Positions 53,059 through 55,934 of a stretch of DNA of 64,000 nucleotides are shown here, piece by piece. The stretch covers positions 248,001 to 312,000 of the forward strand of contig LGYU01000005.1 of the NCBI GenBank assembly GCA_001302245.1, read 5' to 3'. The translations under genes were made by a program, and so were the position numbers. A model generated the notes under the pieces. It worked only from the letters and a program-made list of their open reading frames with translations, had not been told where the DNA came from and did not search any database. The DNA comes from Chitinophagaceae bacterium PMP191F. Its GTDB lineage: Bacteria > Bacteroidota > Bacteroidia > Chitinophagales > Chitinophagaceae. Each line of letters opens with the position of its first letter. Positions within the stretch are counted from its first letter, which is position 1.

Positions 53059-54432
53059 ATGTCCAGGCCATTTTTATTCCTGTTGTTTGCCATAACAGTA
53101 AATGTTACTGTTGTGCAGGCGCAGCCTGTGCTGCACAATGCAGATAAGGCATTTGCTACCGCACGCGATACCAACAAACCGGTATTCCTGGTATTTTCCG
53201 GCTCCGACTGGTGCCAGCCCTGCATACGTTTCCGGGAAAACATTCTTACTGACACAGCTTTCCTGCGTTTTGCCCGGCAAAATCTTATTGTACTGGAAGC
53301 AGATTTTCCGCAACAGAAAAAACTACCCAAGGAAGAGGTACAGCAAAACGAAGCCCTTGCCGAAAAATACAATCCCGAGGGTGCATTTCCCCGCCTGGTA
53401 TTGCTGAAACCGGATGAGTCTGTGCTAACTTTGGTTGAATATACCAACCAGTCTGCCGCCCTTTTTATCAACCAGCTAAAACAGTATTTACAACAGGCAC
53501 ACATGCTGAAAGAATATACCCGCAGTACCAGGCTGATGGGCTCGCTGTTTGAGTTCATTGTAGTAGCCGATAACGATACTACCGGTCAGCAATGGCTGGA
53601 TAACAGCGTACAGGAAGTACAGCGTATTGAAACCCTGCTTACTGAATTTCAACCGGGCTCAGATACCGGCCGCATCAACGCACAGGCAGGTATTGCTGCT
53701 GTACAGGTAAGCAAAGAAACACGGCAACTGATTGAGCGCAGCCACCAGTTGTCTGTATTGACCAAAGGTACTTTTGACATTACTGCGGGTGCGCTGAAAA
53801 AACTGTACAATTTTAAAGGAGAAACTTTTACGCTGCCGGAAGAACATACCATACGTGAAGCATTGCGTAAAACCGGTTATAAGAAGATCAGGGTAACTGC
53901 CAACGATACCGTTTTTCTGCCTTTTGCAGGAATGCATATCAGTTTTGCAGCTATCGGCAAAGGATATGCTGCCGGAAAAGTAAAAGAATTGCTACAACAA
54001 CAAGGCGCAACAAGTGGCGTAGTAAGTGCCGGTGGCGATCTTACCGCCTGGGGCATACGTGCCAATGGCGAACCCTGGAAAACCGGGATTGCTCACCCTG
54101 ATGATTTGTCACGTATCCTGTTATGGCTGCCGGTCAATGGGTTTTCCGTAGCTACATCCGGAAATTATATCCAGTATTTTGATGTGCAGGGCACCCGTTA
54201 TTCGCACAATATCAATCCGCTCACTGGTCGACCGGTAAAAGGTATTAAAAGCGTCAGTATTATCAGCCCTGCAGCAGAACTGTCTGATGCGCTGGCAACT
54301 GCCGTTACTGTAATGGGTGCGCAAAACGGTGTGAGTTTCATCAACCAGCTACCACAAACACACTGCATTGTTATTGATGATGCGGGGAAAATTTTTACAT
54401 CCAGACATATACAGGTTACGCATGCAGCATAG
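53059..54432 (+). CDS. Thioredoxin-ApbE fusion (FAD:protein FMN transferase)
   Basis: A 457-residue exported fusion. Signal peptide (about 1-21), a thioredoxin-like domain (about 22-145) with active site WCQPC (Cys52, Cys55) and the cis-Pro loop GAFPRLVLL, then an ApbE domain (about 158-450). ApbE marks: DITAGALKKL, the AAIGKGYAAGKV helix, GVVSAGGDLTAWG, YSHNINPLTGRPVKG and LSDALATAVTVMG. ApbE attaches FMN to Thr/Ser of extracytoplasmic redox proteins using FAD; the attached thioredoxin could keep Cys residues of the acceptor reduced. ATG 53059 is used because it opens the signal peptide. The next gene overlaps by 11 bases. The acceptor is unproven. Confidence 0.88.
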   Translation: MSRPFLFLLFAITVNVTVVQAQPVLHNADKAFATARDTNKPVFLVFSGSDWCQPCIRFRENILTDTAFLRFARQNLIVLEADFPQQKKLPKEEVQQNEALAEKYNPEGAFPRLVLLKPDESVLTLVEYTNQSAALFINQLKQYLQQAHMLKEYTRSTRLMGSLFEFIVVADNDTTGQQWLDNSVQEVQRIETLLTEFQPGSDTGRINAQAGIAAVQVSKETRQLIERSHQLSVLTKGTFDITAGALKKLYNFKGETFTLPEEHTIREALRKTGYKKIRVTANDTVFLPFAGMHISFAAIGKGYAAGKVKELLQQQGATSGVVSAGGDLTAWGIRANGEPWKTGIAHPDDLSRILLWLPVNGFSVATSGNYIQYFDVQGTRYSHNINPLTGRPVKGIKSVSIISPAAELSDALATAVTVMGAQNGVSFINQLPQTHCIVIDDAGKIFTSRHIQVTHAA

Positions 54433-54655
54433 AACAATTACCTACAGATGTTTTCCTGCTTTTGTCAGCGCAGTGATATTGCTGGCAGCAGGTTGTAAAG
54501 CAGTAAAACCTTATCAGCGGGCTTACCTGAACGACGAAAACATGCAGGTTGGGAAGCTGCCTTCTGAACAATTTTCCGGCAATATGCATACATACCGCGA
54601 AGGCGCTTCCGGCGGAGGTGGTGGTAAAAACAATGGCGGGTGTGGTTGCAATTAA
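54422..54655 (+). CDS. DUF4266 mini-lipoprotein with terminal GCGC motif
   Basis: A 77-residue lipoprotein. Lipobox LAAGC (Cys25) after a short hydrophobic helix, then KAVKPYQRAYLNDENMQ, the conserved start of DUF4266, and a flexible Gly-rich end REGASGGGGGKNN finishing GGCGCN (Cys74, Cys76). DUF4266 proteins are small, usually sit beside DUF3570 and thioredoxin/ApbE genes and end in this Gly/Cys motif; function unknown. The start overlaps the ApbE stop by 11 bases, so translation is coupled. The terminal Cys pair and the Gly-Ala-Ser step before the Gly run are candidate sites for metal binding or modification. Confidence 0.88.
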   Translation: MQHRTITYRCFPAFVSAVILLAAGCKAVKPYQRAYLNDENMQVGKLPSEQFSGNMHTYREGASGGGGGKNNGGCGCN

Positions 54656-54731
54656 ACACTGATTGCACCAATTTGAATACAGATTACGTGGATTTCGCAG
54701 ATTCAGAAGTGCTTATTTTAATTACCAGTTT

Positions 54732-55934
54732 GTGAAAAAAAAGTACATCATATTCGGCCTGCTGTTCTCCTCGTCTTTATACGGGCTAGGACAAAGAGCA
54801 GACAGCAGTTTTAATAAAAGAAAGGTTTCACGTACGGATATACAGGTGGTATATGCACACTACCTGCAGAATGGCAATCATTCTGCCGTGACAGGTGGTA
54901 TTGGTACGGAAAAACTCACCGTTTATTCGCCAGGTGCAAAACTGACACATCAGTCTGATTCACTCCATTCGTACTCCCTGAATGCGGGGGTAGATGTGAT
55001 CACATCCGCTTCTACAGACAATATTGATTTTGTTGTTTCCTCTGCATCACGCAAAGATGCACGCGTGTATGCAGATGCAGGCTATAATGTCGGTATTAAA
55101 CACAGCGGCATTACGTTAAGTGGTGCCGGGCATTTTTCTATTGAATCCGATTATCTGTCCTTTGGTTTTGGGTTAGGAGTAAACCACACCAACAGGAATA
55201 AGACCCGGCAGGTATCTGCCGAAGCCGAAGTATATATTGACGATCTGCGCTGGGGACGATTGAGCAAAAATGAGTCACTGAAACTTTTATATCCCATTGA
55301 ATTGCGTGGCAGGAAATGGTTTACTGAATACAGGCGACGATCGTACAATTTCAATACCATGTTACAGCAGGTCATTAACCGACGCATGGTGCTGGCAATA
55401 TTTCCCGGCGCTGCTTACCAGGATGGACTGCTTTCTACACCCTTTCACCGTGTTTTTACCAAAGACAGTACCGTGCGGGTAGAAGTCCTGCCGCAACATC
55501 GTTTTAAAATACCTGTAGGCATACAACTTAACAGTTTTATCGGCACACGATATATTCTGCGCACTTATTACCGGTATTATTGGGATGACTGGGGCATACG
55601 CGCTCACACCTTTGAAATGACTGTTCCTGTAAAAATTACTCCAAAACTGGTACTTGCTCCGTTTGGAAGATTCTATATGCAGACAGCAGCAGATTATTTT
55701 AAACCCTATCGTCAACATGCACTTTCGGAAAAGTATTACACCTCCGATTATGATCTTTCAAAATTTCACAGCATAGAAGGTGGACTGGAAACACGGTTTC
55801 ACCCTAAAGGCAGAAAACCGGTACCACTGTTCAACGAACTTACTTTGCGATACGGTTATTATAAAAGAAGTGACGGATTGTATGCACATACTATCAGCCT
55901 GTTGATAGACATGATGATGGTACGAACACATTAA
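54732..55934 (+). CDS. DUF3570 protein, probable outer-membrane barrel
   Basis: A 400-residue protein starting at GTG 54732, which opens a signal peptide (KKKYIIFGLLFSSSLYGLGQ); a TTG at 54663 would add 23 poorly fitting residues. The mature part is rich in alternating amphipathic strands: NAGVDVITSASTDNID, SEADYNVG-type repeats, FGFGLGVNHTNRNKTRQVSAEAEVYIDD, RYILRTYYRYYWDDWGIRAHTFEMTVP, and a last strand HTISLLIDMMMV. This fits an outer-membrane beta-barrel of the DUF3570 family. It is third in the cluster with thioredoxin-ApbE and DUF4266, a conserved arrangement, and could be the surface component. Confidence 0.85.
   Translation: MKKKYIIFGLLFSSSLYGLGQRADSSFNKRKVSRTDIQVVYAHYLQNGNHSAVTGGIGTEKLTVYSPGAKLTHQSDSLHSYSLNAGVDVITSASTDNIDFVVSSASRKDARVYADAGYNVGIKHSGITLSGAGHFSIESDYLSFGFGLGVNHTNRNKTRQVSAEAEVYIDDLRWGRLSKNESLKLLYPIELRGRKWFTEYRRRSYNFNTMLQQVINRRMVLAIFPGAAYQDGLLSTPFHRVFTKDSTVRVEVLPQHRFKIPVGIQLNSFIGTRYILRTYYRYYWDDWGIRAHTFEMTVPVKITPKLVLAPFGRFYMQTAADYFKPYRQHALSEKYYTSDYDLSKFHSIEGGLETRFHPKGRKPVPLFNELTLRYGYYKRSDGLYAHTISLLIDMMMVRTH

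Follow-up and report, generated by a model that had tools for sequence, protein, structure and literature searches.

We describe a compact gene cassette in a 64,000-nucleotide stretch of Chitinophagaceae bacterium PMP191F (GenBank assembly GCA_001302245.1, contig LGYU01000005.1, positions 248,001 to 312,000, forward strand), referred to here as the window. Three packed genes encode an exported thioredoxin fused to ApbE, the flavin adenine dinucleotide (FAD):protein flavin mononucleotide (FMN) transferase, followed by a small DUF4266 lipoprotein and a DUF3570 protein (Table 1). Open reading frames (ORFs) and Pfam matches confirmed the three genes as first annotated, including the WCQPC motif of the fusion and the GGCGCN end of the 77-residue lipoprotein. 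The fusion and DUF4266 ORFs share 11 bases. The DUF3570 frame is open from a TTG at 54663, and homologues and the leader sequence favor the GTG at 54732 as its start. All four families are encoded together above the Pfam cut-offs (ApbE, PF02424, E = 1.4e-73, 248.2 bits against a cut-off of 25.6; Thioredoxin_7, E = 7.8e-11; DUF4266, PF14086, E = 6.2e-16; DUF3570, PF12094, E = 4.5e-32). A match to the DsbH disulfide reductase model (NF043050) reached 93.4 bits against a cut-off of 190, and the Thioredoxin_7 cut-off was passed. The closest solved relatives by sequence were 6nxi for the ApbE part (E = 8e-35) and 2ju5, a thioredoxin disulfide isomerase, for the thioredoxin part (E = 7.9e-17). The ApbE part retains the His of RYSHNINPLTG as well as SDALAT, and RYSH..P.TG and SDALAT align to 6nxi.

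Table 1. Features of the thioredoxin-ApbE, DUF4266, and DUF3570 cassette (positions in the window)
Feature	Position	Strand	Basis
Fused exported thioredoxin (Thioredoxin_7) and ApbE FAD:protein FMN transferase, 457 aa	53059..54432	+	Pfam, solved relatives
DUF4266 lipoprotein, 77 aa, C-terminus GGCGCN	54422..54655	+	Pfam, homologue rows
DUF3570 outer-membrane beta-barrel (predicted), 400 aa from GTG, probable flavin acceptor	54732..55934	+	
Putative flavinylation site 1 of DUF3570, TSAS in DVITSAS, acceptor-position Ser94	55002..55013	+	Alignments
Probable flavinylation site 2 of DUF3570, SSAS, acceptor-position Ser106	55038..55049	+	Alignments
Signal peptide of the fusion (MSRPFLFLLFAITVNVTVVQA), the sole export signal seen in the fusion	53059..53121	+	Hydrophobic-leader score; boundary read by eye
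WCQPC redox motif, thioredoxin domain	53209..53223	+	
ApbE domain from internal ATG (Met149), site of the ApbE start in unfused relatives	53503..54429	+	
Lipobox Cys25 of DUF4266	54494-54496	+	Invariant in 56 rows
Conserved Gly-rich tail of DUF4266 (YREGASGGGGGKNNGGCGCN), ending Cys-Gly-Cys-Asn	54593..54652	+	

The locus is a three-gene form of a published cassette. According to the main text of Meheust et al. (2021, eLife, PMC8238504), genes for ApbE, DUF3570, Thioredoxin_7, and DUF4266 cluster together, and DsbD may or may not be part of the cluster (in 316 clusters, it may lie elsewhere). The authors point out that DUF4266 ends in CXC and propose a hybrid thioredoxin-flavin system that is fed by DsbD in some bacteria. 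The window cassette shares with the DsbD-type system of that text the four families (including thioredoxin PF13899), the tight cassette, two acceptor sites, and the DUF4266 CXC. It differs in that thioredoxin and ApbE form one protein, that the sites read TSAS and SSAS rather than [S/T]GA[S/T], and that the genes scanned next to it include no DsbD, the host's DsbD lying elsewhere. The flavinylation cassette and its DUF3570 acceptor are thus already known, and the fusion and the altered acceptor motif make the window cassette a variant. The initial annotation was right to propose a flavinylation system, but the same text shows that such a system had been published and that the flavin goes onto DUF3570 instead of the lipoprotein.

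In the published work, the cognate ApbE of Chlorobium luteolum attached flavin to DUF3570 at two [S/T]GA[S/T] sites (PMC8238504, main text), and the ApbE acceptor motif is given as D-x-x-[S/T]-G-A-[S/T] in the text available from PMC12052999. Window DUF3570 contains neither of the two [S/T]GA[S/T] motifs. Its TSAS and SSAS occupy the homologous positions, aligning column for column with DSVTGAS (or DSVSGAS) and SGAS of a distant family, f38, which is why we file the window cassette as a variant of the published system. The earlier statement that no acceptor with a full motif lies nearby therefore holds letter by letter, but DUF3570 carries DVITSAS and SSAS at the acceptor positions. Ser94 is invariant in 63 rows (alignment A2), and Ser106 is at least 90% conserved. 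Across 116 DUF3570 rows (including a few same-genome copies and one fragment), site 1 reads TSAS in 82, SSAS in 21, TAAS in 10, and TTAS and TSPS in 1 each, with one gap; none of the 115 readable rows has Gly, and 100 of the 116 have Asp at the first motif position. The site 2 columns read SSAS in 67 rows, TSAS in 6, SGAS in 5, and TGAS in 2, the other 36 rows being alignment-shifted or different, and a second motif lies within 70 residues in 94/116. Scans for [S/T]GA[S/T] miss site 1 in this DUF3570 group because of the Gly-to-Ser (or Ala) change. Gly-to-Ser is not reported in the accessible text of PMC8238504 or PMC12052999. DUF3570 is not mentioned in the portion of PMC11334425 that was available. 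Some cassettes have tandem DUF3570 genes (L036, L043, L102, and L233); in L036 and L043, site 2 is SGAS or TGAS and site 1 lacks Gly.

DUF3570 had no solved relative by sequence at E ≤ 1. An AlphaFold2 model built from 63 rows (mean predicted local distance difference test [pLDDT], 88.9; predicted template modeling score, 0.84) has 16 strands as counted from the DSSP string, with strand 62-65 taken as loop. Foldseek and VIA-align matched it to the outer-membrane barrels OpdK, OprD, OmpG, CymA, PelB, BcsC, and BamA, the best match (Z = 20.9) being to 9a2o, itself a model of BamA. The matched outer-membrane barrels have 14 to 18 strands. The model and the matches to OmpG, CymA, OprD, and BamA bear out the "barrel-like" description given before, and DUF3570 is predicted to be an outer-membrane barrel with an export signal. 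Sites 91-94 and 103-106 flank a single loop (residues 91-107; confidence, <50 over residues 96 to 106). By the usual rule, both barrel termini are periplasmic, and from this rule, applied to the model, we infer that loop 91-107 faces outward. Loops on the 91-107 side average 2.21 to 3.23 bits of conservation, and several are long; turns on the opposite side are short, at 1.46 to 2.31 bits. Common porins show the reverse pattern. If the sites are on an extracellular loop, flavinylation would have to come before the barrel is assembled, and the presence of ApbE in either compartment could be explained in this way.

The DUF4266 lipoprotein is most conserved, after Cys25, in its tail (consensus YREGASGANAGKxGGGCGCN). 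A lipobox-like pattern matched 92/124 homologues. Since 80 loci had been picked with a pattern that holds the CxCN tail, they were excluded from the count of tail conservation; among the 70 rows not selected in that way, CxC is retained in 69 (30/30 DUF3570-fetched or window rows, 18/18 ApbE-fetched rows, and 21/22 DUF4266-profile or plasmid rows). The alignment of DUF4266 C-termini called for in the initial annotation thus shows a conserved Cys-x-Cys. The one row without it is a plasmid copy that looks frameshifted, and in four further rows the end is not Asn. In the AlphaFold2 model (mean pLDDT, 66.4), residues 62 to 77 are without secondary structure at a pLDDT of about 50; a disordered tail would suit a flexible redox arm, with the proviso that low model confidence alone proves nothing. 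The same annotation had suggested Ser63, in a Gly-Ala-Ser run, as a flavin acceptor. That column is not Ser in 19 of 124 rows (Ser, 105; Ala, 13; Thr, 2; Gly, 2; Tyr, 1; Val, 1), and D-x-x-[ST]-[GSA]-A-[ST] occurs in 0 of the 124. Although window DUF4266 does have GAS, the absence of the motif from every DUF4266 row and the adjoining gene of a known acceptor family, DUF3570, make flavinylation of Ser63 highly improbable.

The families keep together across genomes, as had been predicted. Of 395 genomes of the phylum, 113 have DUF4266 and 118 have DUF3570; 113 have both, none has DUF4266 alone, and five (G305, G317, G367, G435, and G451) have DUF3570 only (two draws of 395 genomes were taken as the same genomes since their handles agree). 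In the DUF4266-picked loci (the best 80 of 254), the next tagged gene after DUF4266 is DUF3570 in 80/80, one of them a fragment, and the unfused order thioredoxin-ApbE-DUF4266-DUF3570 is found in 64/80. Among 30 stretches fetched with DUF3570, 29 have DUF4266, 23 have the four unfused genes in order, one (L037) is fused, and six are incomplete or reordered. The host genome has three such cassettes, and the other two are unfused. Its single DsbD_TM gene over the cut-off in the whole genome lies at C25:91933, away from the window cassette. In the distant family f38, a gene of about 620 amino acids with a thioredoxin match follows ApbE in 4/8 stretches, and the two that were scanned are full-length DsbD. 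These two directly follow ApbE genes without a leader (L241 5210-7985 and L242 908-3681).

Export leaders were called with a simple hydrophobicity rule, not SignalP, at a threshold of 1.9; borderline cases include one row without a leader at 1.88, one with a signal peptide at 2.16, and a near-copy pair (L250 and L252) that scored 2.04 and 1.83. Scores of at least 2.0 were found in 98/99 thioredoxins, 110/111 DUF4266 proteins, and 107/116 DUF3570 proteins (112/116 at ≥1.6). ApbE reached 2.0 in 27/101 rows, some of them false, with scores arising beyond the domain start (L061) or from two fused rows. Upstream of the LMG anchor of ApbE, 69/99 rows are leaderless, 26 have a leader (one of which, L235, is not a cassette gene), and 4 are fused; from this set, 18 near-identical or duplicate rows had been dropped, and truncated ApbEs (e.g., L156) and L220, L221, and L229 were left out. 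The leaderless ApbEs mostly start 9 to 21 residues ahead of the anchor. The ApbE His is found by a strict pattern in 62/69 and by inspection in the remaining seven, and a DALAT-like motif is found in 67/69. All 14 unfused ApbEs in the window's clade are leaderless. On an ApbE tree without the fused rows, leader and leaderless states need 1 change. With 16 rows from other stretches added (L239, which is broken, L247, L252, and L258 left out), 2 changes are needed, and long branches (f38 with L249 and L250) meet. The f38 ApbEs also look leaderless (eight N-termini read and six classed, with two genomes in both).

Our reading of this pattern is that the precursor is modified while unfolded, whether before or after export. 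Modification before folding fits an experiment described in the main text of PMC8238504, in which DUF3570 and ApbE cloned without their signal peptides still gave flavinylated DUF3570 in Escherichia coli, mostly in the pellet. A cytosolic ApbE is known for soluble fumarate reductase (PMC12052999, accessible text). The leaderless majority among the sampled cassettes raises the question of FMN attachment before secretion, contrary to the usual view of a periplasmic ApbE. Searches filtered by signal peptide would miss ApbE genes of this kind, the majority in the sampled cassettes; the count of extracytosolic flavinylation in PMC8238504 is described there as leaving out genes without a predicted signal. 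The barrel and its sidedness, the fusion, and a cytosolic ApbE are not mentioned in the main text of that paper. Searches of the open-access literature, mainly at the level of article listings, did not find the Gly-to-Ser acceptor, the barrel loop with paired sites, the predominance of leaderless ApbEs, or the repeated fusion of thioredoxin with ApbE, which is no proof of their absence from print.

The fourth ApbE of the host, which has its own leader, adjoins DUF2271 and a PepSY_TM-flavodoxin reductase protein (G000:C25, L235 4454-8220). This neighborhood is another published flavinylation system, and the host DsbD lies about 28 kb from that ApbE.

No export or lipoprotein signal of its own was found in the ApbE part of the window fusion, which has only the thioredoxin leader. 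In a survey at the family level, 143/394 genomes had a match (E ≤ 1e-30), and among the matches listed, the window's is the only one that spans thioredoxin and ApbE without a stop. A survey at the order level, whose genome draw overlaps the former, matched 97/348 genomes (E ≤ 1e-40), and the matches listed include four stop-free fusions (G000, which is the window, G098, G931, and G987). No fusion was found in the 80 DUF4266-picked loci. A single origin of all four fusions was rejected (approximately unbiased [AU] test, p-AU 1e-9); paired origins of the window with L218 (p 0.63) and of L037 with L217 (p 0.52) were not rejected, and therefore we claim at least two origins, not four. The genome search for fusions proposed in the initial annotation thus has at least 4 surveyed genomes among its listed matches. 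All four have one leader only, that of the thioredoxin.

A sequencing error is a possible cause of the fusion, which comes from a single assembly, one genome of the genus having been covered. Against such an error, the similarity of the thioredoxin frame to relatives continues as far as the junction, where no long homopolymer is present, and fusions are present in other genomes too. Read-through or programmed frameshifting as a normal route to a joined product was considered and rejected: in 65 unfused cassettes, the frame of ApbE relative to thioredoxin is 0 in 11, +1 in 23, and +2 in 31, and without an excess of in-frame cases this route is unsupported, so that the in-frame pairs separated by a single stop look like chance adjacency.

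The fusion had been put forward as direct evidence that thiol reduction and FMN attachment act together. The fusion is real, but as evidence it is weaker than that, as the unfused ApbEs of the clade are leaderless and the window fusion keeps the ancestral ApbE start. Since those unfused relatives have no export signal, the fusion may matter by exporting ApbE. A possible but unlikely alternative is that it is a neutral loss of a stop codon: working ApbE would still be translated from the internal ATG (53503) and, like its unfused relatives, remain cytosolic. This ATG, 10 residues ahead of the LMG anchor, lies at the start position of the unfused clade, and the 14 leaderless rows of that clade suit the idea. 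Against it, fusions arose at least twice (one origin being rejected by the AU test), and 3/4 fusions lack an ATG at that position, the window alone having one; L037 and L218 have TTG codons, and L217 has an ATG at the anchor itself.

Taken together, we favor, at a probability of about 0.6, a DUF3570-type flavinylation cassette that works as a thiol-to-flavin electron relay at the outer membrane. ApbE, exported as the C-terminal domain of the thioredoxin fusion, would move FMN from FAD onto the still unfolded DUF3570 precursor; the acceptors would be Ser94 and, probably, Ser106, in a Gly-to-Ser form of the ApbE motif. DUF3570 would then fold in the outer membrane as a barrel of about 16 strands with FMNs at both ends of one outward loop. 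A DsbD-type membrane protein whose gene lies elsewhere in the genome would supply electrons to the exported thioredoxin domain; from there they would reach first the DUF4266 Cys-Gly-Cys and next the FMNs, and may exit to an outside acceptor, perhaps a metal ion. The function of electron transfer by DUF3570 was left uncertain in the 2021 study (PMC8238504, main text); the barrel model with both sites on one conserved, presumably outward-facing loop and the strict partner DUF4266 with its flexible CxC tail offer a testable electron path across the outer membrane.

Several points weigh against this relay. Electrons from the periplasm would need a bridge to outward-facing FMNs, and none was seen in our data. 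The window genes scanned next to the cassette include no DsbD, VIT1, or haem gene. High conservation occurs outside the loops too: strands b10, b11, and b13 have 2.9-3.1 bits, and loop L4 has just 2.2. Not every row has site 2, as 22/116 (one a fragment) show no second motif within 70 residues. Finally, a Gly-to-Ala change in another ApbE substrate reduced flavinylation to about half (Bertsova 2019, as cited in the accessible text of PMC12052999), so that TSAS may be a poorer substrate.

A different account, which we consider unlikely, gives thioredoxin and DUF4266 a role in assembly and not in electron transfer, with CxC as a metal-binding site or thiol chaperone (e.g., for Cu or Fe) and the flavin barrel doing something else. 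CxC is also a metal-binding motif, and several relatives adjoin CusB-like, VIT1, and P-type ATPase genes. Because the DUF3570 protein of the window contains no Cys, the thioredoxin does not serve disulfides in it. Against an assembly role, metal-related neighbors are in the minority (VIT1 in 15/126 stretches) and absent from the genes scanned beside the window cassette, and the full DsbD behind the leaderless ApbE of f38 points to reducing power. We also consider improbable a loss of flavinylation at the TSAS/SSAS loop in this lineage, with some other reason for its retention. The lack of the motif Gly at site 1 in all 115 readable rows would agree with such a loss; the invariant acceptor Ser, the Asp in most rows, the retention of ApbE with its His and DALAT-like motif in most cassettes, and SGAS or TGAS at site 2 in some relatives argue for continued use.

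Porin-cytochrome conduits (MtrCAB and Pcc) carry electrons across the outer membrane, between the periplasm and the surface, through a barrel. The likeness to the window system would be one of working only, in that it too would carry electrons through an outer-membrane barrel; in contrast to the conduits, the window proteins lack CxxCH haem motifs (none in the three proteins) and would use covalent FMN and thiols instead. We offer tentatively, and regard as doubtful in its entirety, an extension of the relay in which the cassette is a haem-free flavin-thiol counterpart of these conduits. The DUF4266 tail would thread the DUF3570 lumen and pass thioredoxin electrons to FMNs at the outer face; a mostly cytosolic ApbE would attach FMN before the barrel forms, the finished flavoprotein precursor would be secreted, and the window fusion would relocate this step to the periplasm. 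Ribonucleotide reductase and thioredoxin reductase have swinging C-terminal tails with Cys pairs. By likeness, the flexible DUF4266 tail could ferry thioredoxin electrons to a buried site; unlike theirs, it sits on a separate lipoprotein. The ApbE-fumarate reductase fusion of trypanosomatids (PMC12052999, accessible text) likewise has ApbE as a domain of a larger protein; there, however, the fusion partner is the acceptor of that ApbE's flavin and the protein is intracellular, and in the window the partner is an exported thioredoxin.

The flanking window genes that were scanned (S41 peptidase, methionine aminotransferase, YjbR, and others) suggest no link to the cassette, and no Rieske, cytochrome b561, CusA/CusB-like, or P-type ATPase gene was found among those scanned beside it. 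Elsewhere, neighbors in 126 stretches include VIT1 (15), Rieske (13), CusB-like (12), presumably CusA-like (10), P-type ATPase (9), Haem_bd (9), and cytochrome b561 (7) genes, a set with many close relatives and one stretch (L235) that is not a cassette, several labels coming from Pfam scans of one or two representatives. In some branches of the tree, these neighbors may point to metals or respiration. The second, unfused host cassette (G000:C66, L032 3012-11159) adjoins Haem_bd, VIT1, P-type ATPase, and CusB-like genes, possibly a metal or haem island. The Rieske-type protein (e.g., L155 4167-4610; one scanned) is found mostly in Flagellimonas and kin. A 127-amino-acid, exported-looking protein lies near the cassette in 19/126 stretches (e.g., L164 5120-5503); the one scanned had no Pfam match.

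Searches of plasmids returned two Hymenobacter records only, and both cassettes (L239 4506-5869 and L240 5878-7142) look decayed. In one, ApbE is spread over two frames and the tail of DUF4266 looks frameshifted; in the other, DUF3570 is split in two.

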